A stretch of 64,000 nt of DNA, taken from Acaryochloris sp. CCMEE 5410 (GTDB lineage Bacteria; Cyanobacteriota; Cyanobacteriia; Thermosynechococcales; Thermosynechococcaceae). Below the pieces are notes generated by a model. It worked only from the letters and a program-made list of their open reading frames with translations. It was not told the origin of the DNA and made no database searches. Positions 1,440-44,033 of this stretch are shown here, in pieces. Made by a program: the position numbers and the translations under genes. The stretch covers positions 434,001 through 498,000 of the forward strand of contig NZ_AFEJ02000001.1 in assembly GCF_000238775.2 (NCBI RefSeq). The letters run 5' to 3'. Numbering within the stretch: the stretch's first letter is position 1; the number at the start of each line of letters is the position of its first letter.

Positions 1440-3899
1440 TTGTGGAAGGAGATAATAAATTTGAGTCTCCTAGGTTTCTTTTTTTCTTACACAAGTTTAT
1501 TGATTGCTAATCTTTTGGGTCAGCAGGAACCGTTCCCCATCGCGCTCCTTCCGGATATAACGGTTGCCTTAATGTTTGGAGGCATGGCTTGTTTATTGAC
1601 CTCTATGGCATTTCGTCATCAGACCTTTTTGAGCGATTCAAAACCCTATGGTCTGCTGATTACCTTCTTGGGGGCATGTAGCCTCATTCCGGTTTTAGAT
1701 ATTGTCTCTCTTCGCATACCCATTGCTGGAGTACAGGGGGGCGTTAAGATTCTCACCGCAGTCATTGGGATCTGGACTGCGAGGGAATATCTGGCCACTG
1801 TTCCACAGGGGTTTTCACCAAGTTATCCTTCATCCTTAATAGATGAAAAGCAAGTCCTCAAGCAGGAGCTCGATCTGACTCACCAACCAGTATCAGGACC
1901 AGATAAAAGCCTGGAACTCTTCAACTATGCCTTTGAATATGCCTTAGTCGGTCAGGCGATTCTATCCCCAGATGGGGAGTGGATCAGAATCAATCCAGCC
2001 TTCTGTAAAATACTGGGTTATTCGGAAGAGGAACTATTGCACACAACCCTCGGAAGTCTTACCCATTCCGAAGATTTAGAATTGGAGCAACAATATTTTG
2101 AGCAATTATTGTCGGGAGAGATTGCAGTCTGCCAGTTTGAAAAGCGATATTTTCACAAGCAAGGGCATTTTGTTTGGGTATTGTTGAGTATCTCTTTAGT
2201 CAGAGCCCCAAACCATCAGCCCCTCTATTTTATTGCTCAAATCGATAATATTTCTGAACGCAAACAGATTGAAGCGGACTTAAAATCAGTCATTAAGCAG
2301 CTAAAACTATCTATTGCAGAGCACTCTACAGAACTAGATAAAGCTTATGCAAACCTACAAAGATCGGCTGCTCAGTACCAAGATCTATATGACAATGCGC
2401 CTGATATGTACTTGTCAGTCGATCCTGAAACCTCGAAAGTGTTGCGTTGTAATCAAACGTTAATCAAAGAGTTGGGGTACAGCTATCCAGAAATCGTGGG
2501 GCGCTCTGTTATCGACTTGTATCATCCTGATTTTCGTTCGGAAGCCAAGAAAGCCTTTCAGACTTTTATCGATACAGGTGAAATAAGAAATATTTACCTG
2601 GTGGCACAGCGCAAAAATGGGACAACTCTAGATGTTAGCGTTAATGCGCAAGGGTTTCGAGATAAGCAGGGCAAGCTTCAATACAGCCGATCAAGCTGGA
2701 GAGACATTTCTGAACGTAAACGCTTGGAAAACCAATTGAAGCAAGTCAATGCTGATTTGGATGAAAAGGTGCAAAACCGAACTTGGGCTTTACAAGTCGC
2801 GGTCCAGTCTTTAAAGGAGAGCCAGTCCCGATTAGAACTGGCTCTAGAGGTTTCGGGGGATGGTTGGTGGGACTGGAACTTGTTCACGGATGAAGTGAAC
2901 TGGAGTGATCAGTTTTTTCAAATGCTGGAGTACAAATCAGAAGAATTATCTCCCTCGTTGCAAACTTGGCAAAGCTTGATCCACCCAGACGATCTACCCC
3001 GTGTGATGGCTTTGCGTGCAGAACACTTGCAGGACGACGCTATTCCTTATGTGTTTGACTATCGGGTACGAACCAAATCTGGACAGTGGAAATGGATTTC
3101 AGCTTTTGGGAAAGTCGTTGACTGGAACAGTCAGGGCGAACCGCTTCGTATGGTGGGGATGCACCACGATATTAGTGATCGCAAACAAGCGGAGCAAGAA
3201 CTACAGAGAATCAATGCTGAGCTGGTTCGCTCCAACCAGGAATTAGGGCATTTTGCCTATGTTGCCTCCCATGATTTACAAGAACCGTTACGAAAAATTG
3301 GGAGTTTTGCGGATCTATTGGCTGATCTCTATCAAGGCCAACTAGATGAGAAGGCAGATCGTTACATCCGATACATCACGGACGGGGCAGTCCGCATGCA
3401 AGGCTTGATTGATGATCTGTTAAGCTTTTCTCGGGTTGGCCGAGCTGAGCTGAAGATTGAACCAACCGCATTATCCTCGCTGGTTGATCAGGTCCTGACT
3501 GATTTAGACAAGGTAATTGAACAGCGCCATGTTGAAATAGTTATCGACCCCTTGCCAACGGTTGTAGTTGATCCTGTTCAAATGAGGCAAGTATTCCAAA
3601 ATCTGATTTCTAATGCCATCAAGTATTGCCAAGCAGATATTCCGAGCATTTACATTAATGCTACTCAAAATCAAGGTTTATGGACTATTTCAGTGAAGGA
3701 TAATGGCATTGGGATTGATCCTCAGTTTAATGAGCGGATTTTTATTATTTTCCAACGGTTACATCATCGAGAGGAATATTCTGGTACAGGGATTGGTTTA
3801 GCTATCTGCAAAAAAATAGTTGAACGCCATGGTGGCCGCATCTGGGTGGATTCTGAAGAAGGTCAGGGAGCGTTGTTCTCTTTCACGTTGCCCAGATAA
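1440..3899 (+). CDS. Membrane-anchored multi-PAS sensor histidine kinase
   Basis: This 819-residue protein appears to start at TTG 1440. About four hydrophobic helices lie in residues 1-125. Three PAS domains follow at about 160-275, 312-425 and 464-585; the third is of the PAS_3 type, with GDGWWDWN and HPDDL. The kinase core follows: HisKA near 605-670 with FAYVASHDLQEPLRK, where His611 is the likely phosphorylation site, then HATPase at about 710-819 with NAIKY, DNGIGI and GTGIGLAI motifs. This HisKA subtype is common in cyanobacterial phytochrome-class kinases. The receiver gene at 4062 lies downstream on the same strand and is the likely partner. The signal sensed is unknown. Confidence 0.9.
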   Translation: MWKEIINLSLLGFFFSYTSLLIANLLGQQEPFPIALLPDITVALMFGGMACLLTSMAFRHQTFLSDSKPYGLLITFLGACSLIPVLDIVSLRIPIAGVQGGVKILTAVIGIWTAREYLATVPQGFSPSYPSSLIDEKQVLKQELDLTHQPVSGPDKSLELFNYAFEYALVGQAILSPDGEWIRINPAFCKILGYSEEELLHTTLGSLTHSEDLELEQQYFEQLLSGEIAVCQFEKRYFHKQGHFVWVLLSISLVRAPNHQPLYFIAQIDNISERKQIEADLKSVIKQLKLSIAEHSTELDKAYANLQRSAAQYQDLYDNAPDMYLSVDPETSKVLRCNQTLIKELGYSYPEIVGRSVIDLYHPDFRSEAKKAFQTFIDTGEIRNIYLVAQRKNGTTLDVSVNAQGFRDKQGKLQYSRSSWRDISERKRLENQLKQVNADLDEKVQNRTWALQVAVQSLKESQSRLELALEVSGDGWWDWNLFTDEVNWSDQFFQMLEYKSEELSPSLQTWQSLIHPDDLPRVMALRAEHLQDDAIPYVFDYRVRTKSGQWKWISAFGKVVDWNSQGEPLRMVGMHHDISDRKQAEQELQRINAELVRSNQELGHFAYVASHDLQEPLRKIGSFADLLADLYQGQLDEKADRYIRYITDGAVRMQGLIDDLLSFSRVGRAELKIEPTALSSLVDQVLTDLDKVIEQRHVEIVIDPLPTVVVDPVQMRQVFQNLISNAIKYCQADIPSIYINATQNQGLWTISVKDNGIGIDPQFNERIFIIFQRLHHREEYSGTGIGLAICKKIVERHGGRIWVDSEEGQGALFSFTLPR

Positions 3900-4061: not shown

Positions 4062-4487
4062 ATGATTGAAATTTTGTTAGTGGAGGATGACGAAGGGGAT
4101 ATAGAGCTAACCCTTGAAGCCTTCAATCGCTCTAAAGTCACCCTGAATGTAAATGTGGTTCGGGATGGGATGGAAGCCATGGCCTATCTCCGGCAAGAAG
4201 GTGAATTCAAGAATGCTACGATGCCAGATTTAATGTTGCTGGATCTCAACTTACCCCGGAAAGATGGTCGAGAAGTGCTGGCCGAGATGCAAGAAAGCGA
4301 GAATCTAAAGCGAATTCCTGTGGTGGTACTGACTACTTCAGAAGCGGATGAAGATATTTTGAAGAGTTACCAAATTGGGGCGAATGCCTATGTCACTAAA
4401 CCAGTGGGATTGAAAGGCTTAGTCAAGGTCGTCAACTTGCTTGAAGAGTTTTGGTTCACGATCGTCAAATTACCTCCTCACCAGTAA
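4062..4487 (+). CDS. Rcp1-like single-domain response regulator
   Basis: The 141-residue receiver-only protein begins MIEILLVEDDEGD. The acidic pocket, phosphoacceptor Asp61 in LLDLNLPRKDG, the VVLTTS switch region and the Lys of VTKPV are all present. The C-terminal FWFTIVKLP tail is typical of Rcp1-type regulators paired with cyanobacterial phytochromes and related kinases. It has no output domain, so it should act by phosphotransfer or protein contact. It lies 162 bp after the PAS kinase on the same strand and is probably its partner. Confidence 0.9.
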   Translation: MIEILLVEDDEGDIELTLEAFNRSKVTLNVNVVRDGMEAMAYLRQEGEFKNATMPDLMLLDLNLPRKDGREVLAEMQESENLKRIPVVVLTTSEADEDILKSYQIGANAYVTKPVGLKGLVKVVNLLEEFWFTIVKLPPHQ

Positions 4488-4513: not shown

Positions 4514-4921
4514 CTAACGCTTGCTAGCCTGTTCCTTTTCCACCCGATCAACGACAGCAATTAGGTCTGGTAGGTCAATGGGCTTTTTCATATATTCGTC
4601 TGCGCCTACGGTCTTAGCGATTTCCAGCACTGAAAAGCCAGGATCATGGGAACGACCACTAACTGCAATTAACCAAGGTTTATGCTCTAGGGACAACAGG
4701 TTGATTTTGGAAATCAGCATAATCCCTCCTCTCGGACTCTCTTGACTGCCTTCCAAAATAAAAATATCAATGAGGGCAATATCCACATATCCTTCATAGA
4801 GTTTGGACATGGCCACATCGATATCAGCGGTATGTTCAGCTTGGTGCCCGTGCTCGCCCAGCATCTTTTGCCAGGTTTCTGCCAGGATTTCATCGTCTTC
4901 AAAAATAAGGATATTGGCCAA
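4514..4921 (-). CDS. Single-domain response regulator paired with the phytochrome
   Basis: The 135-residue receiver begins MANILIFEDDEIL. Asp52 in IALIDIF is the likely phosphoacceptor, with a later ADEYMKKPID segment carrying the conserved Lys-Pro. A longer loop after the Asp (LEGSQESPRGG) differs from Rcp1-type receivers. It starts 13 bp after the phytochrome-type kinase at 4935-7478 ends, on the same strand, which argues for one transcript and a shared phosphorelay. It has no DNA-binding domain. Confidence 0.88.
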   Translation of the reverse strand: MANILIFEDDEILAETWQKMLGEHGHQAEHTADIDVAMSKLYEGYVDIALIDIFILEGSQESPRGGIMLISKINLLSLEHKPWLIAVSGRSHDPGFSVLEIAKTVGADEYMKKPIDLPDLIAVVDRVEKEQASKR

Positions 4922-4934
4922 GGTGCAGCTCCTT

Positions 4935-7478
4935 TTAGGCTAGGAGTTGGTGAATTGTGACATTGAGTTGGTCCCCATCAATCGGCTTTTTAAGCATGGG
5001 CACTTGGTTGAGGGCTTTTGGAAGAGTGAATTTGGAGTTGTAGCCCGTCGTAAAGAGGAAAGGAATTTGTCGCTTTAAAAGTTCTTCTGCCACCACAAAA
5101 CTATTCTCATCCTTGAGATTGATGTCTAATATACCCAGAATGTATTTTTCTTGGTCCAAGTATTTAATGGCCTGCTTGACTCTGGGGGCTGTATCTATTT
5201 CTGAAAACCCCAAAGACTCCAGTAAATTTTCCATCTCTAGCGCAAGCAACATATTGTCTTCAACGATGAGGACATGACCTGTGTCGAGATCTGACTCTTC
5301 CTCTCTTGGAGAGGAGGGAAGGGAGGTAGAAGTGGCTTCAGGTTGATCTTCTTGGAGCAGGATGAGGTGATCAGGTAACCAGAAATTAACTTGGACACCT
5401 GATCTAGGAAAGCGGATTGTCGCTTCCCCTTCAAACTCAAACGGAATGGCTCGCTCGATTAACGTCCGTCCAAATCCTTTGCGTTTGGGAGGGAAGACGG
5501 TCGGTCCATCGGATTCCTGCCAATAGAAAGCAAGCCCACCATCCTGTTCCAGCCAATGGACTTCAAGCTGACCCTCAGAAACCGATAAGGCACCGTACTT
5601 GGCAGAGTTGGTAATCAATTCATGAATGACGAGGGCAAACATGGGCACAAAGTTGGCCTTTAGACCGACTTCTGGTCCAGAGAGACTGACTTGGCGTTCC
5701 GCTTCGGCTAGGTAGGGGCGAAGTTCGATGGTGAGCAGATTGTGGAGACTGGGCCATTCCAAACCATGACCGGCCACTAAATCATGGGCATATGCTAGGG
5801 CTGCAATTCGCCGATCTAGAAGTAAGGTGTATTCTTCAATGGAGGTGGTGGAGTGACGAGTTTGGCGAGAGATGGATCGGATTAGAGCCAAAATATTTTT
5901 GACCCGATGGTTGAGTTCAGCAATCAGAAGATCTTGTTGTCGCCGTTGTCTGAGCCACTCCTGTTGCTGAACTTCTCCTTGAGTAATGGCTAACTGCATT
6001 AACCCCGTGCGCAGTTCTAGGGCAACTTCTGCTTCTGCGTCTGACCAGGGTTGGCATTGACCGGCCACGGTTTCTCGGTATTCTGCAAAGGAAGACCGGG
6101 GGCGGAGTCGTGGACCGTCAGGTCCTTCAACAATATCTTTCTCGGGTGATCCAGCCCAACGAACTTCATAGATAATTTCATTGCGAAAGAAAATAACGAA
6201 GACCTCGTCGCTGGGAGAAATTCCGAGGCAGAGGGCACCAGCCGTTTTATCTAATTGAGAGGCATCAAAGTTGTCCAGTTGGGATAGGTTTTCCAGGGGT
6301 ACTAAATCCGGAGTAGGATTCGTTTGTATCTGGCGAACCAGCTCCATGATCAAGCCGTGGCTGGGCACGTCCCCATAGGTTTGTACATCTTGCTTTGCAA
6401 TGACCGCCAGGCCATGGGATGAGAGCATGGAACACAGTCGTTCTCCCAATGCTTGGACGGTTTGAGTAAAACTGCCTTGATTAGTTAGCGTTTTAACGAC
6501 TTGAGCAATGGCTGAGGTAGTTCGTTTTCGAGTATTAAACCGTTCTTCTTCCAGGACTTGCTGAAACTTGAGGGAAAAGAGCTGTCCAAATAGATCGCAG
6601 GTGGAACGGTAATCAGGGGACAGTAACTTGTCACTATTGTGATGAAAGGCAAAAAGGGCCCATAGTTGCCGACGGACGATGATGGCCACATTCATGGCGG
6701 ATTGAACGCCCATGTTGGCAAGATATTCCAGGTGAATGGGAGACACGGCTCGCACATGGGTGAGGGAAAGATCTAGGGGATCTGCAGTCGAATCAGCAGC
6801 AATGAGGTCTGCAGTTGGGGCATCAATATCTGCGATCGCACGAATAGGCATTCTTAGGGCAATCGAACGGACTTGTTGAGGAATATCCGAAGCCGGGTAT
6901 CTGAGGCCCAGGTAGGGTTCTAAATTATCCGTCAAGGCTTCAGCGACGACTTCCCCAGCCCCATCCGGTAGGAATTGATAAGCCATCACCCGATCAAATC
7001 CAGTTACCCGCTGCAGGTCTTTAACGGCCATTTCCAGTAAGGCAGAAGTGCTGGTTTCTTCTTGCAAGCGGGCTAGCAACATCCGGGCTTGGGTAAAGGC
7101 CGTTTGGTTATCGCGATCCTCCGAGGGAAGCGGCTCTAGTTCGATCAGAAAAGAAGAGCCGCTGCGATGGAGGCTGATATCGAGATGCTGTTGGTTCAAG
7201 GGATACTTCCCGACCCGATCGCGCTGGGATTCAATGGTGGGATGACCGCCAACATTCCTCAAGTTATGGATGACCTGTTCGGGTAAGAGAACGCTTAAGT
7301 CCTGGCCCAAAGCATCATCAGGGGCAACACCTAAGACATCACCAATATTGCTGGAAACATGGGTGATGGATTCAAGATGTTTATCGGTGGCAATCAGAGC
7401 CCCAAAAGATTGGATGCAACCCGGGATATGAATCGGTTCGCTATCACAATTGGAAATAGCTAGTTCTCTAATTTCCAT
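4935..7478 (-). CDS. Bacteriophytochrome-type photoreceptor with HWE kinase and fused receiver
   Basis: The domain order in this 847-residue protein is PAS (about 1-115), GAF (about 130-310), PHY (about 325-500), HWE-type histidine kinase (about 515-705) and receiver (about 735-847). Cys11 in NCDSEPIHIPG matches the N-terminal biliverdin-binding cysteine of BphPs. The GAF has PASDIP (Asp198) and the conserved His249, but no cysteine beside that His, where plant and Cph1-type proteins carry one. The PHY tongue PRxSF motif is at 460-464. The kinase has LNHRVKN (His524) and the receiver Asp is 785. It shares a likely operon with the receiver gene just downstream. Bilin binding is inferred. Confidence 0.92.
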   Translation of the reverse strand: MEIRELAISNCDSEPIHIPGCIQSFGALIATDKHLESITHVSSNIGDVLGVAPDDALGQDLSVLLPEQVIHNLRNVGGHPTIESQRDRVGKYPLNQQHLDISLHRSGSSFLIELEPLPSEDRDNQTAFTQARMLLARLQEETSTSALLEMAVKDLQRVTGFDRVMAYQFLPDGAGEVVAEALTDNLEPYLGLRYPASDIPQQVRSIALRMPIRAIADIDAPTADLIAADSTADPLDLSLTHVRAVSPIHLEYLANMGVQSAMNVAIIVRRQLWALFAFHHNSDKLLSPDYRSTCDLFGQLFSLKFQQVLEEERFNTRKRTTSAIAQVVKTLTNQGSFTQTVQALGERLCSMLSSHGLAVIAKQDVQTYGDVPSHGLIMELVRQIQTNPTPDLVPLENLSQLDNFDASQLDKTAGALCLGISPSDEVFVIFFRNEIIYEVRWAGSPEKDIVEGPDGPRLRPRSSFAEYRETVAGQCQPWSDAEAEVALELRTGLMQLAITQGEVQQQEWLRQRRQQDLLIAELNHRVKNILALIRSISRQTRHSTTSIEEYTLLLDRRIAALAYAHDLVAGHGLEWPSLHNLLTIELRPYLAEAERQVSLSGPEVGLKANFVPMFALVIHELITNSAKYGALSVSEGQLEVHWLEQDGGLAFYWQESDGPTVFPPKRKGFGRTLIERAIPFEFEGEATIRFPRSGVQVNFWLPDHLILLQEDQPEATSTSLPSSPREEESDLDTGHVLIVEDNMLLALEMENLLESLGFSEIDTAPRVKQAIKYLDQEKYILGILDINLKDENSFVVAEELLKRQIPFLFTTGYNSKFTLPKALNQVPMLKKPIDGDQLNVTIHQLLA

Positions 7479-8088: not shown

Positions 8089-10173
8089 ATGGATTCTCAC
8101 GATCATCAACCCCTGGATGCTGATTCAAATGCTTTAAAAACGATGGACACTGCGTTCTACGTTGTTGCCGTTGGAGCATCTGCAGGTGGCCTTAAACCTC
8201 TTGAAGTATTTTTTGGAAATATAACCCCTGACTCAGGTGTAGCCTTTGTCGTCATTCAACATTTGTCCCCAGACTTCAAGAGCTTAATGAATGAAATTTT
8301 GGGTCGCCGCACCCAAATGGAGATTCAAATCGCAGAAGAGGGGATGGAACTTCAACCCAATTCGGTCTATTTAATTCCGTCGGGTCAAAATATGATTGTT
8401 CGGGACCATTGTCTTTATCTTTATCCCCAGAAGCGAGACCAAAAGCCAAATTTCCCAATTAATTTATTCTTTCAGTCTTTGGCAGATGATATTCAAGAAC
8501 GTGCCATTGGCATTGTTCTCTCTGGCACAGGGAGTGATGGTACCCATGGACTCCAACATATCCACGAAAGTGGGGGAATTACGTTAGTCCAAGACCCAAA
8601 TTCTGCCGAATTTGATGGTATGCCCCATACCGCTATCAGTACTGGATGTATTGATTATGTAGCGGATCCTAAAGTTCTAGCTGAAATGGTAAACGACTTA
8701 GGAAATCCTTCCATCGTTCCGGCAGATTTAGTTAAATTTAGCAGCAACTTAGGAGCAGAAGCCCATCAACTTCAAAAGATTGTAGATTTGCTAGCCAAGC
8801 ATGAGGGCATTGATTTTTCTCAATATAAGCTTTCCACCCTGGGTCGTCGAGTCGAGCGCCGACGACTCTTAACCCAAAACACTTCCCTCCATGACTATGC
8901 CAGCTTATTAGGAGCATCTGCTGATGAACGATCGCTGTTACGACGAGATTTACTGATTAATGTCACCCAATTTTTTCGAGATGAAAAGGTTTGGAATTAC
9001 TTAAAAGAGCAGGTCTTGCGTCCTGTCATTGAAGATTTTCCCACAGCTGAAACCCTAAGGGTCTGGGTAACTGCCTGTGCGACAGGAGAAGAAGCCTATT
9101 CCATGGCAATTGTTATTCGGGAACTGTGCGAAGAATTGGGGCGACAGATACCCACCAAACTCTTTGCGACGGATATCGATCAGATGGCGCTAGACAAAGC
9201 CACCTTAGGCGTCTTTGATGAATCGATCGCGGATTATGTGAGTTCAGATCGGCTACGCAAGTTTTTCACTTACGACAACGGCCATTTCACCATCAAGCGA
9301 ACCCTGCGAGAAATGCTAATTTTCTCCCCCCATGACCTCACCAAAAATGCCAGCCTGACTCGCATGAATGTGGTTTGCTGTCGGAATGTGCTGATCTATA
9401 TGCAACCCATTTTGCAGCAGTATGTCCTCCGCAACCTACATTTCTCCCTCAACAAGGGCGGAATCCTCTTGTTGGGAACCTCAGAAGACTTAGGTGAAGT
9501 AGAGCCTGAATTTGAAGTTCTACATTCTAAGAATAAGGTCTTTTCTAAATTAAGAGAGCAACGTCTAAATCTAAATTATTTCCGAACGAAAACGATTGCT
9601 ACCCCAGTGATTTCGGGGCGAGATTCACGCTACCGTCGTCAAACGGACCCTCTGCTGGAGAATGCCTTTAAAGCCCATCTTGAAGAACAACACGTTACTT
9701 GCCTGTTGTTAGATACGGACGAGAAGTTACTGCGGGTCTGTGCCGATCACCTCGATATCTTACGAATTCCAGATGGTCCAGCCACTGAGAACGTTAGAGC
9801 GTTGCTGCCCGAAGTGATGCATCTCCCCTTTATTTCAGCCATCAGTCGAGTCCAGCGGGAAAAGCAATCCGTGCAATTCAGTGGCCTCCTGTGGGAGCAC
9901 AAGAATGAGCAGTTTGAATTAAGGTTTAAGCTTAGCCCATGCCAACCCAACCATCGTGACCCCCTGTTCTTGAAGCTAGAGATTTCTACTATTTCCCGAC
10001 ACCCCACACAACCTCAACTGCAGGATGTGGAAAGTAGTACGGAGGTGATGAATCGGATCGAACAGTTGGAACTAGAACTGTCTTATACCCGAGAGAACTT
10101 GCAGGCCACCATTGAAGAGTTAGAAAGTACGAATGAAGAACAACAAGCCACTAATGAGGAAGGGCGTAGCTAA
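8089..10173 (+). pseudogene. CheB-CheR-PAS-histidine kinase fusion, 5' part cut by an IS
   Basis: The visible 694 residues hold a CheB methylesterase domain at about 24-205, with GASAGG (Ser31), VVIQHLSP and SGTGSDGT catalytic motifs. A CheR methyltransferase follows at about 222-490, with the SAM motif ACATGEEAYS. After a PAS-like stretch at about 540-640, a glutamate-rich coiled coil (ESTNEEQQATNEE) begins. The native frame ends at 10161; the last residues GRS and the stop come from an ISKra4-type element. Removing the element and one copy of the 9-bp duplication AATGAGGAA joins this frame exactly to CTG at 11656, restoring a protein of about 1,502 residues. The fragment could still make a CheB-CheR protein. 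Confidence 0.9.
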
Positions 10174-11646
10174 TGGATCGGGGATGCCTTAGACTTCGGA
10201 ATGGTTACCCCTGGGAATAGGGAGTCAAACCGTTGATTGACCCAGGCAAGCCGCAGCATGAGTAGATGATTGAAACCATCCTCACTCCAGCGCATACCAA
10301 CCCCCTTAAAGCGCTGTTGAATCAGCCACTTACAAGCACTTTCGACCATTCCTGACCCCAGCGGTATCTGTAGTTGTTCAAAGTGGCGATATTGGATGTG
10401 TCGCAGATGGCGCTGGAAATAAGCCTGTACCTGGAGCAACGTCGTAAAGATTTGCCCGTAAACAATTGTGAGTGAATCAACATCGTCAAGGACCGCAATA
10501 CTAATAGGTGTTGCCCATGTCGCAATTGGTGTCGCCAGCGCCGAAACCAGGCTTGGGCTTGAGCAGAGCGAACATCCCCAAACATCACTTTTGTTGCTCG
10601 TGCAAGATGGCCTGCTGCATGAAAAAAATCGAGAACTGCCACAGCACAGTGAGAGAACAAGGTGCGGTAGACTCGCCAGAAGCCTCGCCCCCCATCACTC
10701 AACCAGATGACGCTTGGGGCCGATTCAAAGTCTTGTTTGCGGGCTTCGAGTTGCAGTAAGGGGATGAACTGGTCGATATCGCCCAATACTGCTACCAGTC
10801 TTCGACGTAGTAGTTGGGGGACACGCTTTTGTGCTCGGGTGCCCCGTGTTCCTAGGCGGGCTAAGATAGCAACTTTGACTTCTCGCCACTGGATTTTTCC
10901 CTTGGGGGTTTTCGGGGTGGGGCGAAAGGGCACCATCACACCGTCAGCAGCAATGGCCAAAGGTAGAGCAGACAACACCTCTGAAATCGCTTCACAAGGA
11001 GTCTGGTCACCTGAGGCTTGAGCTTTGAGTTGAGTCTCTAGCTCCTGATAAGCTTTGTTGCCCATGACTTGCACCCAACTCCACAAGCTTGATGAGCTGA
11101 CGGATAAACCACTCCACTGACTCAGCATCCAACTGGCCAGTTCATAGGGCATAAATAGACTTAACAAGCAGCCTAGACGAACCAATTCTTCACTGCTGTG
11201 CTGATAGGAGGTAATCCCAATGGATTGATCCAAAGGAGCGGATAGACTACCTGGACACCTGTGGGGACAACGACCCACCCGTCGCTTTCAGGCAATATTT
11301 CCCACCAGTGTCTGCATCTGACGAGATTCCCATCCCTTCGAGTGCAAGCGGGTTCCGCAAGTGGGACACCTCGGCCATTCCAATACTGTTTTTGCTCGCC
11401 GTGAGAGTTCATCCTCCAGAAGCCATCGAGCCAAATACAAACCCATTTGCAGAACGATATAAACCATCTGACTCAGGCTGGGTGATTCTTTGAGTGCTTC
11501 GACCTGTTCTAGAAATTCGTGATGCTCTAGTACGGTTGGCAATTGCGATGTTAGGCTCATGACAAGTTTTTGATTCGGGTACAGGATCTATTGTCCTTGA
11601 CCCGTTTTTCTTTGAGCCATACATCCCCGATTCTGTGCTTACGCCC
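10162..11646 (-). mobile_element. ISKra4-type insertion sequence, copy A (1,485 bp)
   Basis: The element begins GGGCGTAGCTAATGGATCGG and ends in the near-inverse, with CATCCCCGAT and CTTACGCCC at the right end. Seven terminal bases and an inner ten-base block of the inverted repeats match exactly. A 9-bp target duplication AATGAGGAA lies at 10153-10161 and 11647-11655. A nearly identical copy lies at 17718-19200, so the boundaries are supported twice. It sits in antisense orientation inside the CheB-CheR kinase gene. Assignment to ISKra4 rests on the transposase sequence and the 8-9 bp duplications. Confidence 0.93.
10170..11560 (-). pseudogene. ISKra4-type transposase, broken (copy A)
   Basis: Translation starts MSLTSQLPTVLEHHEFLEQV at 11560 and has a zinc-finger-like CPTCGTRLHSKG segment. 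An in-frame TGA at 11288-11290 interrupts it after LVGNIA, and the same frame then continues KRRVGRCPHRCPG to about 10450. A one-base deletion in an A run near 10447 shifts the frame before LQVQAYFQRHLRHIQY. The C-terminal part runs to 10170 and contains IPLGSGMVESACKWLIQQRF, the conserved catalytic Glu region. Joined, the pieces give about 463 residues. Copy B lacks this frameshift but has others, so the parent was intact at those sites. Confidence 0.88.
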
Positions 11647-14091
11647 AATGAGGAACTGATTGCCTCCAATGAAGAGTTACAGAGTACCAACGAAGAACTC
11701 CATGCGGTTAATGAAGAACTGTACACCGTCAATAACGAACATCAATCCAAAATTCTGGAATTGACGGCCCTGAGTAATGACATTGATAACCTGTTCCGCA
11801 GTACGGAAATTGGCGTGGTATTTCTCGATCAGAGCCTGCAGGTTAGGAAATTTACCCCGGCGGCAAATCAAATTTTTCAATTTCTACCCACGGATGTGGG
11901 ACGTCCGATTCGAAATTTAGCCATCAATGTCAACTATCCCTCTTTGCTCGAAGTTTTATCGGAAACAGCGCGGACCGGCAAAGTCACCGAACAGGAAATT
12001 AACACCAATGACCAACATTTGCTGGTTCGGATCCATCCCTATATCGATAATGATGAGGAACAGCAGGGGGTAGTGATGTCGATTATTGATATTACGGCCA
12101 CTCGCAAGGTCCAGATTGAACTCCAATCCCAACGGATTAAAGCCAAGCTGGCCCAGGACACCCTAGACGTTTTTCAAGAGCGCTATCAGCAGCTCTACCA
12201 TGAAACCCCGGTGATGATGTACTCCTTGGATGCCCGAGGGGTCGTTATAGCAGTGAGTAATTTTTGGCTTTCGAAATTAGGCTATCCCCGCAACATGATT
12301 TTGGGGGCGACCGTGGATCTATTTCTCAATCCAGAATCCCAAGAGCGGTTTGAAAAGCTGTGGCCGCGTTTTCTAGAGTCTGGTTTAAGCATTGATGTGC
12401 CAATGCGGATTCAGACCAAATCCGGCGAGATCATTGATGTATTGCAATCGATGATTGCCGAGCGAGATGATCTAGGGGAGGTATCGCGATGTTTAGTGGT
12501 TTCGGTTGATATTAGCCAACGCAAACTGGCAGAAGCTGCGAGACTAGAGAGCGAACAGCGATTTCGCTCCATGGCAGACCATGCCCCTGTGATGATCTGG
12601 CTCACGGATACTCACGGACACTGTACTTATCTGAATCAAGAGTGGCTGCAGTTTACAGGGGATTCCCTAGAGCCAGCCCTAGATAAAGGTTGGACAGAGG
12701 GGATTCATCCCGAGGATGCAGAGGAAACGGCGGCAGCCTATCAGCAAGCCCTGTCAGAACGACAGCCCTTTCGCCAGGAGTTTCGACGGTGCGATCGCAA
12801 TGGCAACTATTGTTGGCTCTTAGATACCGCCAAGCCTCGATTTCTACCCACAGGGGAATTTGCCGGCATGATTGGGTCTTGTATTGATATCACCCTACAG
12901 AAACAAGCCGAACAATCCTTAGAACTATCCAACCTCACTCTGGAAGCCGATTTAGCTGAAAAAGATGCCTCTTTACATACCATCGAAGGTAACTTGCAAG
13001 AAAGCGAAGCCCGATTTTACTCCCTAGCAGATAATGCTCCAGTGCTAATTTGGCTCAGCGATGCCCAAGGAAACTGTACCTACGTCAACCAAACCTGGGA
13101 GATTTTGACTGGCCAGTCCTTGGAATCCCAACTTGACGGAGGATGGCTGCATACGATTCATCCAGAAGATCGTGAACGAGTCCAATCCCTATTCCAAGAA
13201 AGTTGTGCTCAGCAATGTCCTTTTGAGCAGGAATTTCTACAAGCCAGAGCAGATGGCGTCTACCGTTGGATTTTGGCAACGGGAGTCCCGAGGCTAGCGG
13301 CCGATCAGTTTGCTGGCCTGATTTGTTCCTGTATGGACATTTCCGATATCAAGCATTCTCAGAAAAGATTAGAGCAAGCGATTCAAGAGCTACAACGTTC
13401 GAATCAGGAGCTAGAGCAGTTTGCCTATATCGCTTCCCACGATTTACGGGAGCCTCTCCGTAAAATCCAAAGTTTTGCAGAACTTTTACAAGACGATTTA
13501 TCGACAAAGCTAGATCAAGATCAAAGCCGATACTTTGGGTACATCATGTCAGGGGCAGCGCGGATGCAATGTCTCATTCAAGATGTGCTGCAATACTCTC
13601 GGGTTGGGCGAAACGACCAACCCCTAGAGTTGATCGATCTAAACCACGTGCTCGACATTGTGCAATCGGATTTAAGTTTATCGATAGAAGAAAATCAGGC
13701 TGTTATCGAATTTGACTCACTCCCCTCGATTTATGCCCATACCGTAGAGATGACTCAAGTTTTTGAAAATCTAATCAATAATGCCATCAAGTTTCGCTCT
13801 TCTACTCCGCCTCGGATTCAGATCTCTGCAGAACAACAATCTGAATCTTGGACAATCTCCGTTAAGGATAATGGAATTGGGATTCCTCAAGACTCTTTTG
13901 AGCGCATTTTTACCATGTTCCAACGCTTACATTATCCTGATCAATATCCAGGAACAGGAATTGGTTTGGCATTGTGTCGCAAAGTTATCGAAAATTATGG
14001 GGGAACCTTGATATGCAGATCTACCCCAGGTGAAGGGGCAACTTTTGTCATCCAACTCCCCCTGCAGCCCAGGGTGCCGATATTGAAGTAG
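11635..14091 (+). pseudogene. CheB-CheR-PAS-histidine kinase fusion, 3' part
   Basis: Native sequence resumes after the IS at 11647. It starts with the rest of the coiled coil (NEELIASNEELQSTNEELHA), then a PAS_10-like domain, three more PAS domains (about 180-300, 310-420 and 440-550 of the fragment), HisKA with FAYIASHDLREPLRK (His602 of the fragment) and a HATPase with DNGIGI and GTGIGLAL. The IS end supplies an in-frame GTG at 11635, so an 818-residue orphan kinase could be made, though no clear ribosome site precedes it. The frame matches the 5' half perfectly once the IS and one duplication are removed. Confidence 0.9.
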
Positions 14092-17717: not shown

Positions 17718-19200
17718 GGGCGTAGCTAATGGATCGGGGATGCCTTAGACTTCGGAATGGTTACCCCTGGGAATAGGGAGTCAAACCGTTGATTGACCCA
17801 GGCAAGCCGCAGCATGAGTAGATGATTGAAACCATCCTCACTCCAGCGCATACCAACCCCCTTAAAGCGCTGTTGAATCAGCCACTTACAAGCACTTTCG
17901 ACCATTCCTGACCCCAGCGGTATCTGTAGTTGTTCAAAGTGGCGATATTGGATGTGTCGCAGATGGCGCTGGAATAAGCCTGTACCTGGAGCAACGTCGT
18001 AAAAGATTTGCCCGTAAACAATTGTGAGTGAATCAACATCGTCAAGGACCGCAATACTAATAGGTGTTGCCCATGTCGCAATTGGTGTCGCCAGCGCCGA
18101 AACCAGGCTTGGGCTTGAGCAGAGCGAGCATCCCCAAACATCGCTTTTGTTGCTCGTGCAAGATGGCCTGCTGCATGAAAGAAATCGAGAACTGCCACAG
18201 CACAGTGAGAGAACAAGGTGCGGTAGACTCGCCAGAAGCCTCGCCCCCATCACTCAACCAGATGACGCTTGGGGCCGATTCAAAGTCTTGTTTGCGGGCT
18301 TCGAGGTGCAGTAAGGGGATGAACTGGTCGATATCGCCCAATACTGCCACCAGTCTTCGACGTAGTAGTTGGGGGACACGCTTTTGTGCTCGGGTGCCCC
18401 GTGTTCCTAGGCGGGCTAAGATAGCAACTTTGACTTCTCGCCACTGGATTTTTCCCTTGGGGGTTTTCGGGGTGGGGCGAAAGGGCACCATCACACCGTC
18501 AGCAGCAATGGCCAAAGGTAGAGCAGACAACACCTCTGAAATCGCTTCACAAGGAGTCTGGTCACCTGAGGCTTGAGCTTTGAGTTGAGTCTCTAGCTCC
18601 TGATAAGCTTTGTTGCCCATGACTTGCACCCAACTCCACAAGCTTGATGAGCTGACGGATAAACCACTCCACTGACTCAGCATCCAACTGGCCAGTTCAT
18701 AGGGCATAAATAGACTTAACAAGCAGCCTAGACGAACCAATTCTTCACTGCTGTGCTGATAGGAGGTAATCCCAATGGATTGATCCAAAGGAGCGGATAG
18801 ACTACCTGGACACCTGTGGGGACAACGACCCACCCGTCGCTTTCAGGCAATATTTCCCACCAGTGTCTGCATCTGACGAGATTCCCATCCCTTCGAGTGC
18901 AAGCGGGTTCCGCAAGTGGGACACCTCGGCCATTCCAATACTGTTTTTGCTCGCCGTGAGAGTTCATCCTCCAGAAGCCAGCGAGCCAAAACAAACCCAT
19001 TTGCAGAACGATATAAACCATCTGACTCAGGCTGGGTGCTTCTTTGAGTGCTTCGACCTGTTCTAGAAATTCGTGATGCTCTAGTACGGTTGGCAATTGC
19101 GATGTTAGGCTCATGACAAGTTTTTGATTCGGGTACAGGATCTATTGTCCTTGACCCGTTTTTCTTTGAGCCATACATCCCCGATTCTGTGCTTACGCCC
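17718..19200 (-). mobile_element. ISKra4-type insertion sequence, copy B (1,483 bp)
   Basis: Its ends are identical to copy A at 10162-11646. It is flanked by the 8-bp duplication GAGCTGTT at 17710-17717 and 19201-19208. The two copies differ by a few substitutions and four single-base indels, netting two bases. It lies just after the prepilin gene at 16859 and does not interrupt it. It faces the same way as copy A. Confidence 0.93.
17726..19114 (-). pseudogene. ISKra4-type transposase, broken (copy B)
   Basis: The start MSLTSQLPTVLEHHEFLEQV is shared with copy A. A one-base deletion near 18990 shifts the frame after QMGL. The same in-frame TGA as copy A occurs at the position equivalent to 11288-11290. 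A C lost from a C run near 18248 breaks the frame in the region read as SDGGRGFWRVYR in copy A. An A lost near 17972 breaks it again after LLQVQAY. None of these three indels is in copy A, so the copies decayed independently after duplication, apart from the shared TGA. Confidence 0.87.
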
Positions 19201-39370: not shown

Positions 39371-41155
39371 TCAGGCTAATCTTCGAGGCCAGGTAAAGAA
39401 AAAAGCACTCCCACGATCGTCAGACTCAACCCAAACAGTTCCTCCCTGCTGCTCGACAATCTTTTTGATAATGGTTAATCCTAGGCCGGTTCCTTTAGCA
39501 TGATCGGCAGGAGCAAGAGTTTGAAAGATACCAAAGATGCGCTGGTGATTCTCTGGAGCAATGCCAGGACCATCATCAGCAACGGTGAACTGCAACTGCT
39601 CCCCCAAGTCCTGACATCGGATTTGGATACAACCATCGGGACGATCATGGTACTTGATGGCATTACTAATCAGGTTGGCAAAGACTTGCTTTAACAAGAG
39701 GGGTTGGGTTTCAATCTGAGGAACTGCGTCAGGAAGCACAACCTGAAACTCCGCTGGAGGGGTGAGGGAGTCGACCACCTCATGCAGTAACTGCAGAATA
39801 TCTACCTGGAGGATTTCGACCGTTTGCTTGCCCGCCCGTGAGTACTGGAGAACACCATTGATGAGCTCTTCCATCCGTAGAACACGGTGTTGGATCAGCC
39901 TTAACTGCTCTTGGTTTTCCTGGGGGAGCTGCTCTTGCAGATCTTCGACCAACCACTGCGATAGGTTAGAAATACCTCGTAGCGGTGCTTTAAGGTCGTG
40001 GGAGACAATGTAAGCAAACTCATCCAGCTCTTGGTTCCGTTGATTCAGCCGATGCAACGCTTGAGCCAGTTTTCGATTCGCTCGCCCCAATTCAGTGGCG
40101 CGCTCTTGTAATTGGCGATCAATCGCCTGTTGCTTTTTTAATCCAGCTCTTAGACTCGTAACCAGTTCAGCTTGCTGGATAGCAATTGCCCCCTGCACCG
40201 CCAGCTCATCCATCAAAGTCAACTCTTCTGGCTGCCAGTCATGGGCCGTCTGACAATGGTGTGCAATCAGCAGTCCCCATAATTTGGGTTCATCCGTGGT
40301 GACGCTGTGGCTAATGATCGGGACCACCAAGTTGGCCTTCACCTGAAACTGCTGCAACATCCGTAGATGGCAGTCAGATAGTCCAGCCGTGGTAATGTCA
40401 GCAACCACCATTCTATGTCCCTGAATATACTTGTGGGCCTGATAACTTTGCTCCCCCTGAAAGCAGTTGTCTTCTAAGGTGAGTCCCATCACTGAGGTCC
40501 ATGTTGGTAGAACCGATTCAGCAACGACTATGCCACTCATGTTGATTTCAAACTGATAAATCAGGGTGCGATCGCACCCTAGCAACTGCCGTGTTCCTGC
40601 TGTAATCACCTGTAAAATCTGGTCCAGTTCTGATGCTCGATTGATTTGTAGAGCCACTTCTGTGAGGAGAGACCGCTGCTGCTGGTACTGCTCAAGCGCT
40701 GTCCTAAGCCGATGCTCGGTCAACACATTGCCTACGGTCTGGAGCAAGTTAGCGGGTGTCAACTGTCCTTTGATTAAATAATCCTTTGCGCCTGCCTTCA
40801 TGGCTGCAACCGCAACTTCCTCGCTGCCTTGGCCCGTCAACATAATCACTGGAGGACAGATTTTTAATTGTGCCGTTAGCTCTGCCATCAACTCCAACCC
40901 ATTCATATCGGGAAGGTTATAATCCAGCAGAATGAGATCAGGAACCTGGCTATGGCAAGCCACTAATGCCGCTTCTCCACAGTCATATTCTTCGATTTTT
41001 CCGACCGATCCCAAAGACCGACAATAGGTGAATCGATCGGTCTCCGAGTCGTCCACAATCAAAATTAACTGTGCTGGCAGACCAGTCGCGACAGAGTGGG
41101 CATTAGGATCTGGAACAATATTCATTACTGAGAAGTGGGTTGACATCTTATTCAA
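39371..41155 (-). CDS. Receiver-GAF (DXCF cyanobacteriochrome)-histidine kinase
   Basis: The order in 594 residues is receiver (about 28-145, Asp78 in LILLDYN), GAF (about 165-335), coiled coil, HisKA (His386 in FAYIVSHDLKAPLRG) and HATPase (about 475-590, with NAIKYH, DDGPGIAPE, GTGLGLTI). The GAF has the canonical CBCR cysteine Cys262 in SDCHLRML and a second Cys231 in the DNCF tetrapeptide at 229-232, matching the DXCF motif of dual-cysteine CBCRs. The following FQVKANLVVPI is also CBCR-like. It is therefore probably a bilin-binding photoreceptor of the blue-sensing dual-Cys type. It is next to a BphP-type gene. Confidence 0.87.
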   Translation of the reverse strand: MNKMSTHFSVMNIVPDPNAHSVATGLPAQLILIVDDSETDRFTYCRSLGSVGKIEEYDCGEAALVACHSQVPDLILLDYNLPDMNGLELMAELTAQLKICPPVIMLTGQGSEEVAVAAMKAGAKDYLIKGQLTPANLLQTVGNVLTEHRLRTALEQYQQQRSLLTEVALQINRASELDQILQVITAGTRQLLGCDRTLIYQFEINMSGIVVAESVLPTWTSVMGLTLEDNCFQGEQSYQAHKYIQGHRMVVADITTAGLSDCHLRMLQQFQVKANLVVPIISHSVTTDEPKLWGLLIAHHCQTAHDWQPEELTLMDELAVQGAIAIQQAELVTSLRAGLKKQQAIDRQLQERATELGRANRKLAQALHRLNQRNQELDEFAYIVSHDLKAPLRGISNLSQWLVEDLQEQLPQENQEQLRLIQHRVLRMEELINGVLQYSRAGKQTVEILQVDILQLLHEVVDSLTPPAEFQVVLPDAVPQIETQPLLLKQVFANLISNAIKYHDRPDGCIQIRCQDLGEQLQFTVADDGPGIAPENHQRIFGIFQTLAPADHAKGTGLGLTIIKKIVEQQGGTVWVESDDRGSAFFFTWPRRLA

Positions 41156-41246: not shown

Positions 41247-41684
41247 TTAGTTAGACGAGGGAAGCACCGTCGCCTGAAACCAAAATTCTAAAAACTGGTG
41301 CATTGTGGCTCTAAACTGATTTGGGTTAAATGATTTCAGTAGGTAGCCGCTGACGCCAGCATAATAACAAGTATAGACATCCTCTGGATTGGAGGAGGTG
41401 GTGAGAACCACAACGGGAATGACCTTTAACCGATCATCTTGCTTAAGTTCTGCAAGCACTTCCCGCCCATCGGTACCAGGCAGGTTGAGATCCAGTAGCA
41501 CCAAGTCTGGCAAAGGATGATCCTCGGGTGACATTAGATAGTCAAGAGCATCCTCCCCATCCACGCAGCGAGCAATCGATAGATCAAAGCGGTCAACTTC
41601 GCGAATAATGCGGCTGAAGATTTCATAGTCCTCATCACTATCTTCGACCACCAAGAGAGTGTGAGATAAAGTGGGGTCATCCAT
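41247..41684 (-). CDS. Rcp1-like response regulator
   Basis: The 145-residue receiver begins MDDPTLSHTLLVVEDSDED. Phosphoacceptor Asp65 lies in LVLLDLNLPGTDGRE, the switch is VVVLTTSS, and the conserved Lys position reads YLLKSF. It ends with FLEFWFQATVLP, typical of Rcp1 partners of cyanobacterial phytochromes. It starts 3 bp after the phytochrome-type kinase gene upstream, on the same strand. The pair is therefore a canonical kinase-regulator operon. Confidence 0.92.
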   Translation of the reverse strand: MDDPTLSHTLLVVEDSDEDYEIFSRIIREVDRFDLSIARCVDGEDALDYLMSPEDHPLPDLVLLDLNLPGTDGREVLAELKQDDRLKVIPVVVLTTSSNPEDVYTCYYAGVSGYLLKSFNPNQFRATMHQFLEFWFQATVLPSSN

Positions 41685-41687
41685 ACC

Positions 41688-44033
41688 CTATTGCCCCAAG
41701 TAGAAGTAGAACGTGCTGCCTTCCCGGGGGACAGACTGAATCGCAATACGGCCCCCATGGCGCTCCACAATTTTCTTGACGATGGTGAGACCGGCTCCTG
41801 TGCCGCCACCATAGCGATTGGGAGCATGAAGGCGCTTGAAAATCTTAAACACGTTCTCTAATTGTCGTTCACGAATACCAATTCCATTATCCCTTACATA
41901 CAGAACCATTTGATCGGTATCGAGCGTCTCAGGCAAAATTGAGCGATCTTCGTCGGGGGTAATGTAGCCAATTTCAATCCATTTATGGGGCTTGTTGTTG
42001 TACTTAATGGCATTGCTAATTAAATTGGTGAACACCTCTGTAACCCGGATGCGATCGCAGGCCAAGGTCGGCAACGATCGGGGAATCCTAAATTCCACAG
42101 ATTCCGGCTGACTCATTTGAATCACGCCGAGGACCTCCGCCAGGACTGCGCTCAGATCCGTATCGTAAATCGCGAGGTCTGCGCGTCCCAACCGAGAATA
42201 GTGCAACAGCGAACTAATCAAATCCTCCATGCGCTGGGTAAGGCGCATCAGGGTTTCCAGTTTGTGCTGACCCTCTGCATCTAGTTGCTCCCCATAATCT
42301 TCAATCAAAAAGCTCGAATAGTTGTGAATGCCCCGCAGCGGTTCTTTAAGATCATGGGAAGCAATATAGGCAAAGGCGTCGAGTTCGCTGTTGCTGCGCT
42401 GCAAATCAGCATTGAGCATCGCCAGCTCATCCACCTTCTTCAGCACAATACCAATAATGGCACCACGAAGCTCTAGGACGGCTTCTTTGGCCAGATCGCT
42501 CCAGGGAAGCGATTTCCTCCGAACCGTCTCTTGCCAGCGTTCAAAGGACTGTCTCGGTGTCAAATAAGGTAAACCCTCGGCATCAACCCCTTGCTGCTGC
42601 TTGGGTTCGCCTCCCCAATTTACCGTCTGTACCACCTCCGGTTTAAACCACAGCAGATGGATATTCTGGGCAGGAGAGATTTGCAGGGCTAACAATCCAC
42701 TAGCAACAACTTGATGGTCGGCCAGAGCAGGATACACTTTCCCCAGTTGATCGGTACTGTAGAGTAGAGCGGGGGGAGTAAGCTGTTGGCTCACCCAGTG
42801 GATTAAAGGGGCAATTGTCGGTTCCGGGGGAGTCTGTCCAAAAGCAATCAACTGTTCGCCTTCGCAGAACACTAAACCTGAGGCATCGGCCAGCACCATC
42901 AAGTCGATAGGATGATGACTGATGGCGGCCAACAGCGACTGGTAGCGACTACTGGATTGCACAAAATTGGCCTGAATCGACTGTAGTCTCACCCGCTCCA
43001 CCAAACGTTGCTTGTCCAATTTTGTGAGCAGCTCCATGGAGACGGCCTGTCCAACAAATTCACAAACTGTGCGCAGTGGGTAGGATAGGGGCTTTGGGAC
43101 ATAGTGATGGCAAGCAATTAGGCCCCAAAGCTGCTGATTGCACAGCAGCGAAATCGACAGAGACGCCCGCACCCCCATATTGTTCAGATATTCTGTATGC
43201 ATTGGCGAAACACTTCGCAGAACAGACAGGCTCATATCTAACGGGGCTTGGGTGACGGGGCTATGCAGCGGCTCCAGGGGAATCGGTTCATAGGTGGCAT
43301 CGGGAATCAGGCGCAGGCGATTGAGCCGATATAGCTGTTTGGCCTGTTTGGGAATATCAGTAGCTGGATAGTGCAGTCCGAGAAAAGGCTCTAGATCAGA
43401 TCGCCGATCCTCGGCAATCACATCGCCAGCACCGTCTGAATCAAACCGATAGACCATCACGCGGTCAAACCCCGTAATCTGACGAACTTCAGCCGCAGCC
43501 GTTTGACACAATTCCGTCAGAGTCTGAGCTTGCTGTAGGTGATTAATGGGGGCCTTGACCCATCGATAAAAATCAAAAAAATCGATGGGTTGGGGATTGT
43601 CTAGGGGTTCTAATTCCAGGACAATGACGGTCTCAGTCCGATGGGCCACTCCACCCATATCCCTGCCATTAACCCTCAGTTGGAGTGGATTAACCTGTTC
43701 AAAATCAGCTGCCAAGCATCCCCGAATCTGATCCAATTGATTGGGGGGGAGTAGCTTAGATAAAGGTTGACCCAATAGCGCCGCAGGAGGTTGTCCCAGT
43801 AGCTGAAGGGCATTCTGACTGATCTGCTGAATTACGAAATCGTCTTCAGTGCAGGTGATAAGAACCCCATGAGGCTGAATGGCGCTGGGGATATGGATGG
43901 GTTCGCGATCGCAGTTCGTCAACGACACATCCGATGGCACAAGATCAGGATCAGTGAGGATTGCGATTTCTGCTCTAACCTGCGTGTTTGGATCGGAAGA
44001 TTCAGGTGAAACCGATGATGTCATTGAAAACAA
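41688..44033 (-). CDS. Bacteriophytochrome-type histidine kinase
   Basis: The 781-residue protein has PAS (about 30-145), GAF (about 165-325), PHY (about 340-520), HisKA (FAYIASHDLKEPLRGI) and HATPase (NAIKYN, DNGIGI, GTGAGLTI). Cys41 in NCDREPIHIP is the BphP biliverdin site. The GAF has PATDIP (Asp226) and His279, without a cysteine before that His. A PRxSF tongue motif occurs in PHY (TPRQSF). It shares an operon with the Rcp1-like regulator and lies upstream of the CBCR gene on the same strand. Compared with the 4935-7478 protein it has a conventional HisKA core and no fused receiver. Confidence 0.93.
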   Translation of the reverse strand: MFSMTSSVSPESSDPNTQVRAEIAILTDPDLVPSDVSLTNCDREPIHIPSAIQPHGVLITCTEDDFVIQQISQNALQLLGQPPAALLGQPLSKLLPPNQLDQIRGCLAADFEQVNPLQLRVNGRDMGGVAHRTETVIVLELEPLDNPQPIDFFDFYRWVKAPINHLQQAQTLTELCQTAAAEVRQITGFDRVMVYRFDSDGAGDVIAEDRRSDLEPFLGLHYPATDIPKQAKQLYRLNRLRLIPDATYEPIPLEPLHSPVTQAPLDMSLSVLRSVSPMHTEYLNNMGVRASLSISLLCNQQLWGLIACHHYVPKPLSYPLRTVCEFVGQAVSMELLTKLDKQRLVERVRLQSIQANFVQSSSRYQSLLAAISHHPIDLMVLADASGLVFCEGEQLIAFGQTPPEPTIAPLIHWVSQQLTPPALLYSTDQLGKVYPALADHQVVASGLLALQISPAQNIHLLWFKPEVVQTVNWGGEPKQQQGVDAEGLPYLTPRQSFERWQETVRRKSLPWSDLAKEAVLELRGAIIGIVLKKVDELAMLNADLQRSNSELDAFAYIASHDLKEPLRGIHNYSSFLIEDYGEQLDAEGQHKLETLMRLTQRMEDLISSLLHYSRLGRADLAIYDTDLSAVLAEVLGVIQMSQPESVEFRIPRSLPTLACDRIRVTEVFTNLISNAIKYNNKPHKWIEIGYITPDEDRSILPETLDTDQMVLYVRDNGIGIRERQLENVFKIFKRLHAPNRYGGGTGAGLTIVKKIVERHGGRIAIQSVPREGSTFYFYLGQ

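Follow-up and report, generated by a model that had tools for sequence, protein, structure and literature searches.

We have found that the HWE bacteriophytochrome of Acaryochloris sp. CCMEE 5410 is followed by a gene for a separate receiver, here called REC2, whose relatives stand beside HWE phytochromes in cyanobacterial and planctomycete loci. The reading that we favour, with modest confidence, is that an AM1_5894-type bacteriophytochrome has REC2 as its dedicated second receiver and that REC2 passes the signal to a PAS-HisKA-type kinase. The window (the whole 64,000 nt stretch that was analysed, C1:434001-498000) comes from a genome of 8.09 Mb and holds the pair on the reverse strand:

4935-7478 (-), AM1_5894-ortholog bacteriophytochrome, 847 aa, PAS-GAF-PHY-HWE kinase-receiver
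5988-7451 (-), photosensory core: PAS_2 7134-7451, GAF 6627-7046, PHY 5988-6509 (Pfam coordinates converted to bases)
7446-7448 (-), codon of Cys11, the bilin attachment site in the published ortholog (PMC4901347)
5673-5921 (-), HWE_HK Pfam region, aa 520-602, with the His524 codon at 5907-5909
5514-5522 (-), W653-x-E655 motif of the ATPase part, which reaches to ~aa 705
4962-5276 (-), fused receiver, with the Asp785 codon at 5124-5126 and the FATGUY-like strand PFLFTTGY at aa 806-813
4514-4921 (-), REC2, single-domain receiver, 135 aa, TTG start, with the Asp52 codon at 4766-4768

The phytochrome ORF opens with ATG, and its product matches PAS_2 (aa 10-115), GAF (aa 145-284) and PHY (aa 324-497), all above the Pfam cut-off, followed by HWE_HK (aa 520-602; 85.3 bits, cut-off 22.8) and Response_reg (aa 735-839; 44.3 bits, above cut-off). 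The E-values of these domains (1e-36 to 1e-9) and the existence of full-length orthologs with 50-80% identity argue against a chance match. HisKA_2 scored 19.6, under its cut-off of 22.3, and neither HisKA nor HATPase_c was detected on the 847-aa protein at E 0.001 (Pfam), so that the protein does not qualify as a HisKA phytochrome. The initial annotation had described a BphP-type photosensory core with Cys11, PASDIP and PRxSF (present as PRSSF), joined to an HWE kinase and a fused receiver; both parts of this description hold. Besides these three motifs we found the H-box His524, W653-x-E655, the receiver Asp785 and Lys831. An N-terminal bilin Cys with PAS-GAF-PHY, then an HWE kinase and a fused receiver, places the protein among the type-2 HWE-receiver phytochromes.

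For comparison we aligned 95 HWE phytochromes (the window and 94 loci, drawn from 80 named genome loci, nine plasmid loci and genome stretches; L062, a duplicate of L142, was left out, as were the repeats L060, L061 and L143-L145). Eleven positions, C11, H279, H524, N624, W653, E655, D785, G812, Y813, K831 and P832, are invariant in 95/95, among them the residues that mark the HWE kinase (H524, N624 and W653-x-E655), and two more are nearly so (H249 in 94 and D741 in 91). The FATGUY motif is spelled PFxFATGUY; the PFLFTTGY strand on beta4 of the fused receiver is alike but not letter for letter, with P806 kept in 91 rows, F809 in 80, and T/S at 811, G812 and Y813 in all 95. The best solved relatives of the phytochrome are bacteriophytochrome photosensory cores, led by 9rn8 and 6g1y at E ~1e-91; 6g1y we take to be the Agrobacterium Agp2 core.

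The phytochrome itself is already known from a different strain, as AM1_5894 of A. marina MBIC11017; Loughlin et al. 2016 (PMC4901347) describe a gene of 2544 nt encoding 847 aa with Cys11, an HWE kinase and a receiver. Length, Cys11 and the order PAS-GAF-PHY-HWE-receiver are alike in the two orthologs, and they come from different strains; by eye, the printed cloning primers show a few mismatches to the window. According to the same paper AM1_5894 covalently binds biliverdin and phycocyanobilin, both at Cys11, has a Pr ground state and photoconverts (705/758 nm with biliverdin), and an identical layout occurs in CCMEE 5410 and Leptolyngbya PCC 7375; in the portion of the paper available to us there is no mention of a second receiver gene beside AM1_5894. 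The literature has proposed that this protein controls light-harvesting antennae, and PMC13259208 (2026) treats it as a candidate sensor for antenna acclimation, with no downstream partner named in the text available to us. AM1_5894 is the phytochrome that has been characterised in a cyanobacterium with chlorophyll d; REC2 is a small, concrete and testable candidate for such a partner. A search of the open-licence literature, mostly by listing, turned up no earlier account of REC2 or of HWE phytochromes from planctomycetes, and REC2 and its partnership with an HWE phytochrome appear to have been undescribed until now.

A separate receiver 13 bp after the phytochrome had been pointed out in the initial annotation, and the gene for REC2 indeed lies across a gap at 4922-4934. 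Its TTG start is supported by homologs that have ATG at the aligned position. Nine REC2s were aligned (L159, nearly identical to L158, was left out): all nine keep Glu8, Asp9, Asp52, Ser/Thr88 and Lys113-Pro114, and all nine have an enlarged beta3-alpha3 loop, with 12 residues (cyanobacteria) or 13 (others) from Asp52 to a Gly-Gly pair, Gly65-Gly66 in the window. The Asp pocket, the Lys-Pro and the 12-13-residue loop are thus common to every aligned member, the usual beta5 aromatic residue is absent in seven of the nine, and REC2 has no FATGUY motif. When one lineage at a time was omitted from the profile, the missing members were regained at 77-124 bits, whereas no other ORF in a set of 3955 scored above 39; in a tree the REC2s fall on one side of a branch, weakly supported (50/82). 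Judged by sequence, REC2 is a real and distinct receiver subfamily. The tree does not support an origin of REC2 by duplication of the fused receiver. The predicted model of REC2 (mean pLDDT 91) has a CheY-like fold in which the beta3-alpha3 loop is longer; the attempt to explain this loop structurally was set aside, the fold being that of an ordinary CheY and the best PDB matches generic receivers. The MrrA/SdrG single-domain FATGUY receivers, described as phosphotransfer intermediates that pass phosphoryl groups between kinases (PMC9981736, PMC5964349), share a like motif with the fused receiver of the window, whereas REC2 has the enlarged loop instead.

By profile search REC2 stands beside an HWE phytochrome in 10 of the 95 loci (weakest E 7e-23, next ORF 1e-10) and in none of the 84 proteobacterial loci. 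The ten are the window, plasmid pMB01 of Acaryochloris sp. Moss Beach (L050), where the phytochrome is 73% identical, and L158, L159, L160, L142, L063, L161, L065 and L127; by origin they are Pirellulaceae (L063 and L161), Rhodopirellula rubra (L065), a doubtful MAG labelled Acidimicrobiales (L127) and cyanobacteria. In nine of the ten the REC2 gene follows the phytochrome gene immediately and in the same orientation, with a gap of 13 bp in the window and 14 bp in Moss Beach, and the two genes touch or overlap in Leptolyngbya-like and planctomycete genomes. In L142 they are divergent, and there REC2 is not co-transcribed with the phytochrome. The phytochrome-linked copy is the top REC2-profile match in each of seven carrier genomes and on the Moss Beach plasmid, the models including these members. 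A search with the single REC2 protein, which reaches close relatives only, found it in 1/386 phylum genomes at 1e-8; of 72,556 plasmid records, Moss Beach alone gave a clear match (62%), and two more gave 28-29%.

REC2 is absent beside the 80% identical ortholog of genome G390, whose best match to the profile over the whole genome is 2.7e-10 as against ~1e-50 to 1e-58 in carriers; REC2 is therefore dispensable in at least one strain. A receiver-GGDEF gene (9229-10362, minus strand of locus L059) lies divergent upstream of this REC2-less ortholog and could be an alternative output. The Pirellulaceae genome G632 (L161, 7638-10301 and 10329-12860) has two HWE phytochromes. Directly downstream of one of them, REC2 forms the N-terminal part of an 887-aa protein that continues with PAS repeats, HisKA and HATPase_c; the other phytochrome and a heme-oxygenase-like ORF lie alongside. 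This one fusion in a planctomycete gives a hint of the partner of REC2 and points to the next signalling step.

The layout of the phytochrome had been called better known in proteobacteria than in cyanobacteria, and our searches bear this out. Over full length, only the window's own genome matches among 386 sampled genomes of the cyanobacterial phylum; among 388 genomes of the class seven give a match that passes E 1e-90, and in six the match spans the entire protein, namely the window's, G390 (80% identical), G525 (51%) and G499, G550 and G611 (50-51%, from one other genus), and the seventh, G099, matches in the photosensory core only. Among the relatives found, the HWE-receiver layout is commonest in alphaproteobacteria. 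A 2015 survey (Buchberger and Lamparter, PMC4422448) reported, outside Bacteroidetes and proteobacteria, an HWE phytochrome only in A. marina; HWE phytochromes are now extended to planctomycetes.

In the kinase-only tree the seven cyanobacterial rows form one set (SH-aLRT 96), within an 11-row set (99) that adds three planctomycete rows and Sulfitobacter L064. The photosensory-core tree has the same sets, the cyanobacterial one at 98, and a 12-row set including L127 at 100; in the kinase-only tree L127 is placed elsewhere, weakly joined to another long row. A rooted core tree of 57 rows, from which the long rows L127 and L124 were left out, splits off 13 cyanobacterial HisKA phytochromes at 100/100 and holds cyanobacterial and planctomycete groups at 99/97 each. 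Clustering with ordinary HisKA phytochromes, which had been named as a possible refutation, is thus contradicted both by this split and by the Pfam assignment to HWE. Core and kinase trees agree, so both parts appear to have travelled together, and to judge from these sequence trees both belong to a cyanobacterial/planctomycete clade apart from rhizobial Agp2. The phytochrome, REC2 and CheB/CheR kinase of L127 all sit on long branches, and the Acidimicrobiales label of this MAG may be wrong.

Two further known systems resemble the pair in part. Alphaproteobacterial type-2, Agp2-like HWE bacteriophytochromes have the domain order and invariant residues of the window's protein; they differ in being 34-37% identical to it (eight aligned), in forming a separate clade and in having no REC2 neighbour. 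Agp2 is a bathy phytochrome. The Acaryochloris ortholog, in contrast, has a Pr ground state (PMC4901347), which makes the bathy label unsuitable for the window's phytochrome. Cyanobacterial phytochromes of the Cph1/CphB type, which work with separate Rcp receivers, likewise combine a PAS-GAF-PHY core with a receiver gene just downstream, but have a HisKA kinase and no fused receiver, and their cores are split from the HWE group at 100/100.

In the mechanism that we propose, light would toggle biliverdin (or phycocyanobilin) on Cys11 between Pr and Pfr, as shown for the published ortholog, and photoconversion, as the family suggests, would alter autophosphorylation of His524 by the HWE kinase. 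The phosphoryl group could pass to Asp785 of the FATGUY-like fused receiver, which would probably act as sink or relay, and to Asp52 of REC2, which gene order suggests is probably made from the phytochrome transcript. A branched two-receiver relay, with one kinase serving both receivers, had been suggested in the initial annotation and is possible, the phospho-accepting Asp of both being intact. REC2, which has no output domain, would most likely signal to a separate PAS-HisKA-type kinase, either through contact or by handing over the phosphoryl group. For five bathy phytochromes kinase activity is reported to be low in the Pfr state (PMC11021371); if the same applied here one might guess, by analogy, that a protein with a Pr ground state is most active in the dark or in far-red light. 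That paper also states, citing other work, that the Asp of the fused receiver affects how active the kinase is in related HWE phytochromes.

The domains, the intact catalytic residues, the REC2 subfamily with its linkage and the G632 fusion count for the explanation by a phytochrome with a dedicated REC2; G390, the divergent arrangement in L062/L142 and the failure of the neighbouring kinases to be singled out count against it, and a different kinase could serve REC2. A fuller version would have the light-driven HWE kinase act on REC2 and REC2 on a PAS-HisKA kinase, reached in trans in cyanobacteria and joined to REC2 in Pirellulaceae, while the fused FATGUY-like receiver would serve as a sink in parallel; this seems to us unlikely to hold in all its steps. 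If true, it would make a signalling unit common to cyanobacteria and planctomycetes and absent from proteobacterial HWE phytochromes. The fused receiver might instead signal alone, as in Agp2-like proteins, REC2 being a passive or differently wired neighbour kept by linkage. This we hold doubtful, though worth serious attention: G390 keeps its phytochrome at high identity and 85/95 loci have no REC2 beside the phytochrome, but REC2 stays linked in both cyanobacteria and planctomycetes even where identity between the phytochromes falls to ~40%, the genes touch or overlap in several loci, and the carrier genomes have no second strong REC2 copy elsewhere. Distinctly improbable, in our judgement, is that REC2 is an allosteric regulator or adaptor which binds and tunes the phytochrome or the PAS-HisKA kinase rather than accepting phosphoryl groups from the former. 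Its N-terminal fusion to a kinase in G632, the position of the enlarged loop after the phosphorylation site and the frequent loss of the beta5 aromatic would suit such a role; the conservation of Glu8, Asp9, Asp52, Ser/Thr88 and Lys113 in all nine speaks against it and argues for phosphorylation of REC2.

As to the origin of the phytochrome, one might suspect that Acaryochloris recently acquired an Agp2-like gene from rhizobia, given that 6g1y, taken to be Agp2, is among the closest solved structures and that the layout is commonest in alphaproteobacteria. We regard such a transfer as extremely improbable: both trees put the window with cyanobacterial/planctomycete genes (96-99), apart from Agrobacterium/Rhizobium, and a rhizobial origin was rejected on their evidence. 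The 2015 survey grouped the A. marina HWE phytochrome with Polaribacter as closest and proposed lateral transfer of its gene from a flavobacterium (PMC4422448); our trees contain no Bacteroidota sequences, and a transfer from Bacteroidota, as proposed there, may have taken place.

Around the phytochrome-REC2 unit of the window lie two PAS-HisKA kinase genes, 1440-3899 and 8089-14091, the latter cut:

1440-3899 (+), convergent neighbour, multi-PAS HisKA kinase, candidate downstream partner
4062-4487 (+), convergent neighbour, receiver not of REC2 type, Rcp-like by eye
8089-10173 (+), divergent neighbour, CheB-CheR section of a gene (interrupted by an insertion element) for a CheB/CheR-PAS-HisKA kinase
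11635-14091 (+), remaining PAS-HisKA part of the cut gene

Compared with the REC2-fused kinase, the two neighbouring kinases rank 4th and 6th among 31 genome matches, and the kinase at 1440-3899 was dropped as the named partner of REC2, its similarity (rank 4 of 31) not being specific. Apparent receiver and kinase remnants beside the Moss Beach pair (5306-5611 and 8938-9370 of L050) resemble, by eye, the window's convergent neighbours. The insertion element (10162-11646, 1485 bp, with a 9-bp duplication) interrupts the CheB/CheR-PAS-HisKA gene and has a second copy at 17718-19200 (99.3% identical). A CheB/CheR kinase adjoins the phytochrome in 6/95 loci, six of the ten with REC2 and none of the 85 others (Fisher p 2.4e-7, kinship ignored; flanks scanned mostly 3-5 kb, shorter at contig ends), and eight genomes searched have one to seven CheB matches each. 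The adjacent copies do not group as a single clade (AU p 1.3e-5), and their label is no more clustered in the tree than in shuffles, which suggests recurrent adjacency, not an inherited module; the idea that the CheB/CheR-PAS kinase and the pair make up a conserved module of three genes was accordingly rejected.

The window holds a second phytochrome at 41688-44033 (-), with an N-terminal NCDREP Cys and a HisKA-type kinase, in which the GAF-site Cys was not seen by eye. MBIC11017 is reported to have one canonical phytochrome and no Cph (PMC4901347), and no match to the second phytochrome was found in G390; it may therefore be strain-specific. Its own receiver lies directly downstream at 41247-41684 (-), the pair having a Cph-type form, and just beyond these two genes is a gene that reads, by eye, as a receiver-GAF-HisKA-like kinase, 39371-41155 (-).
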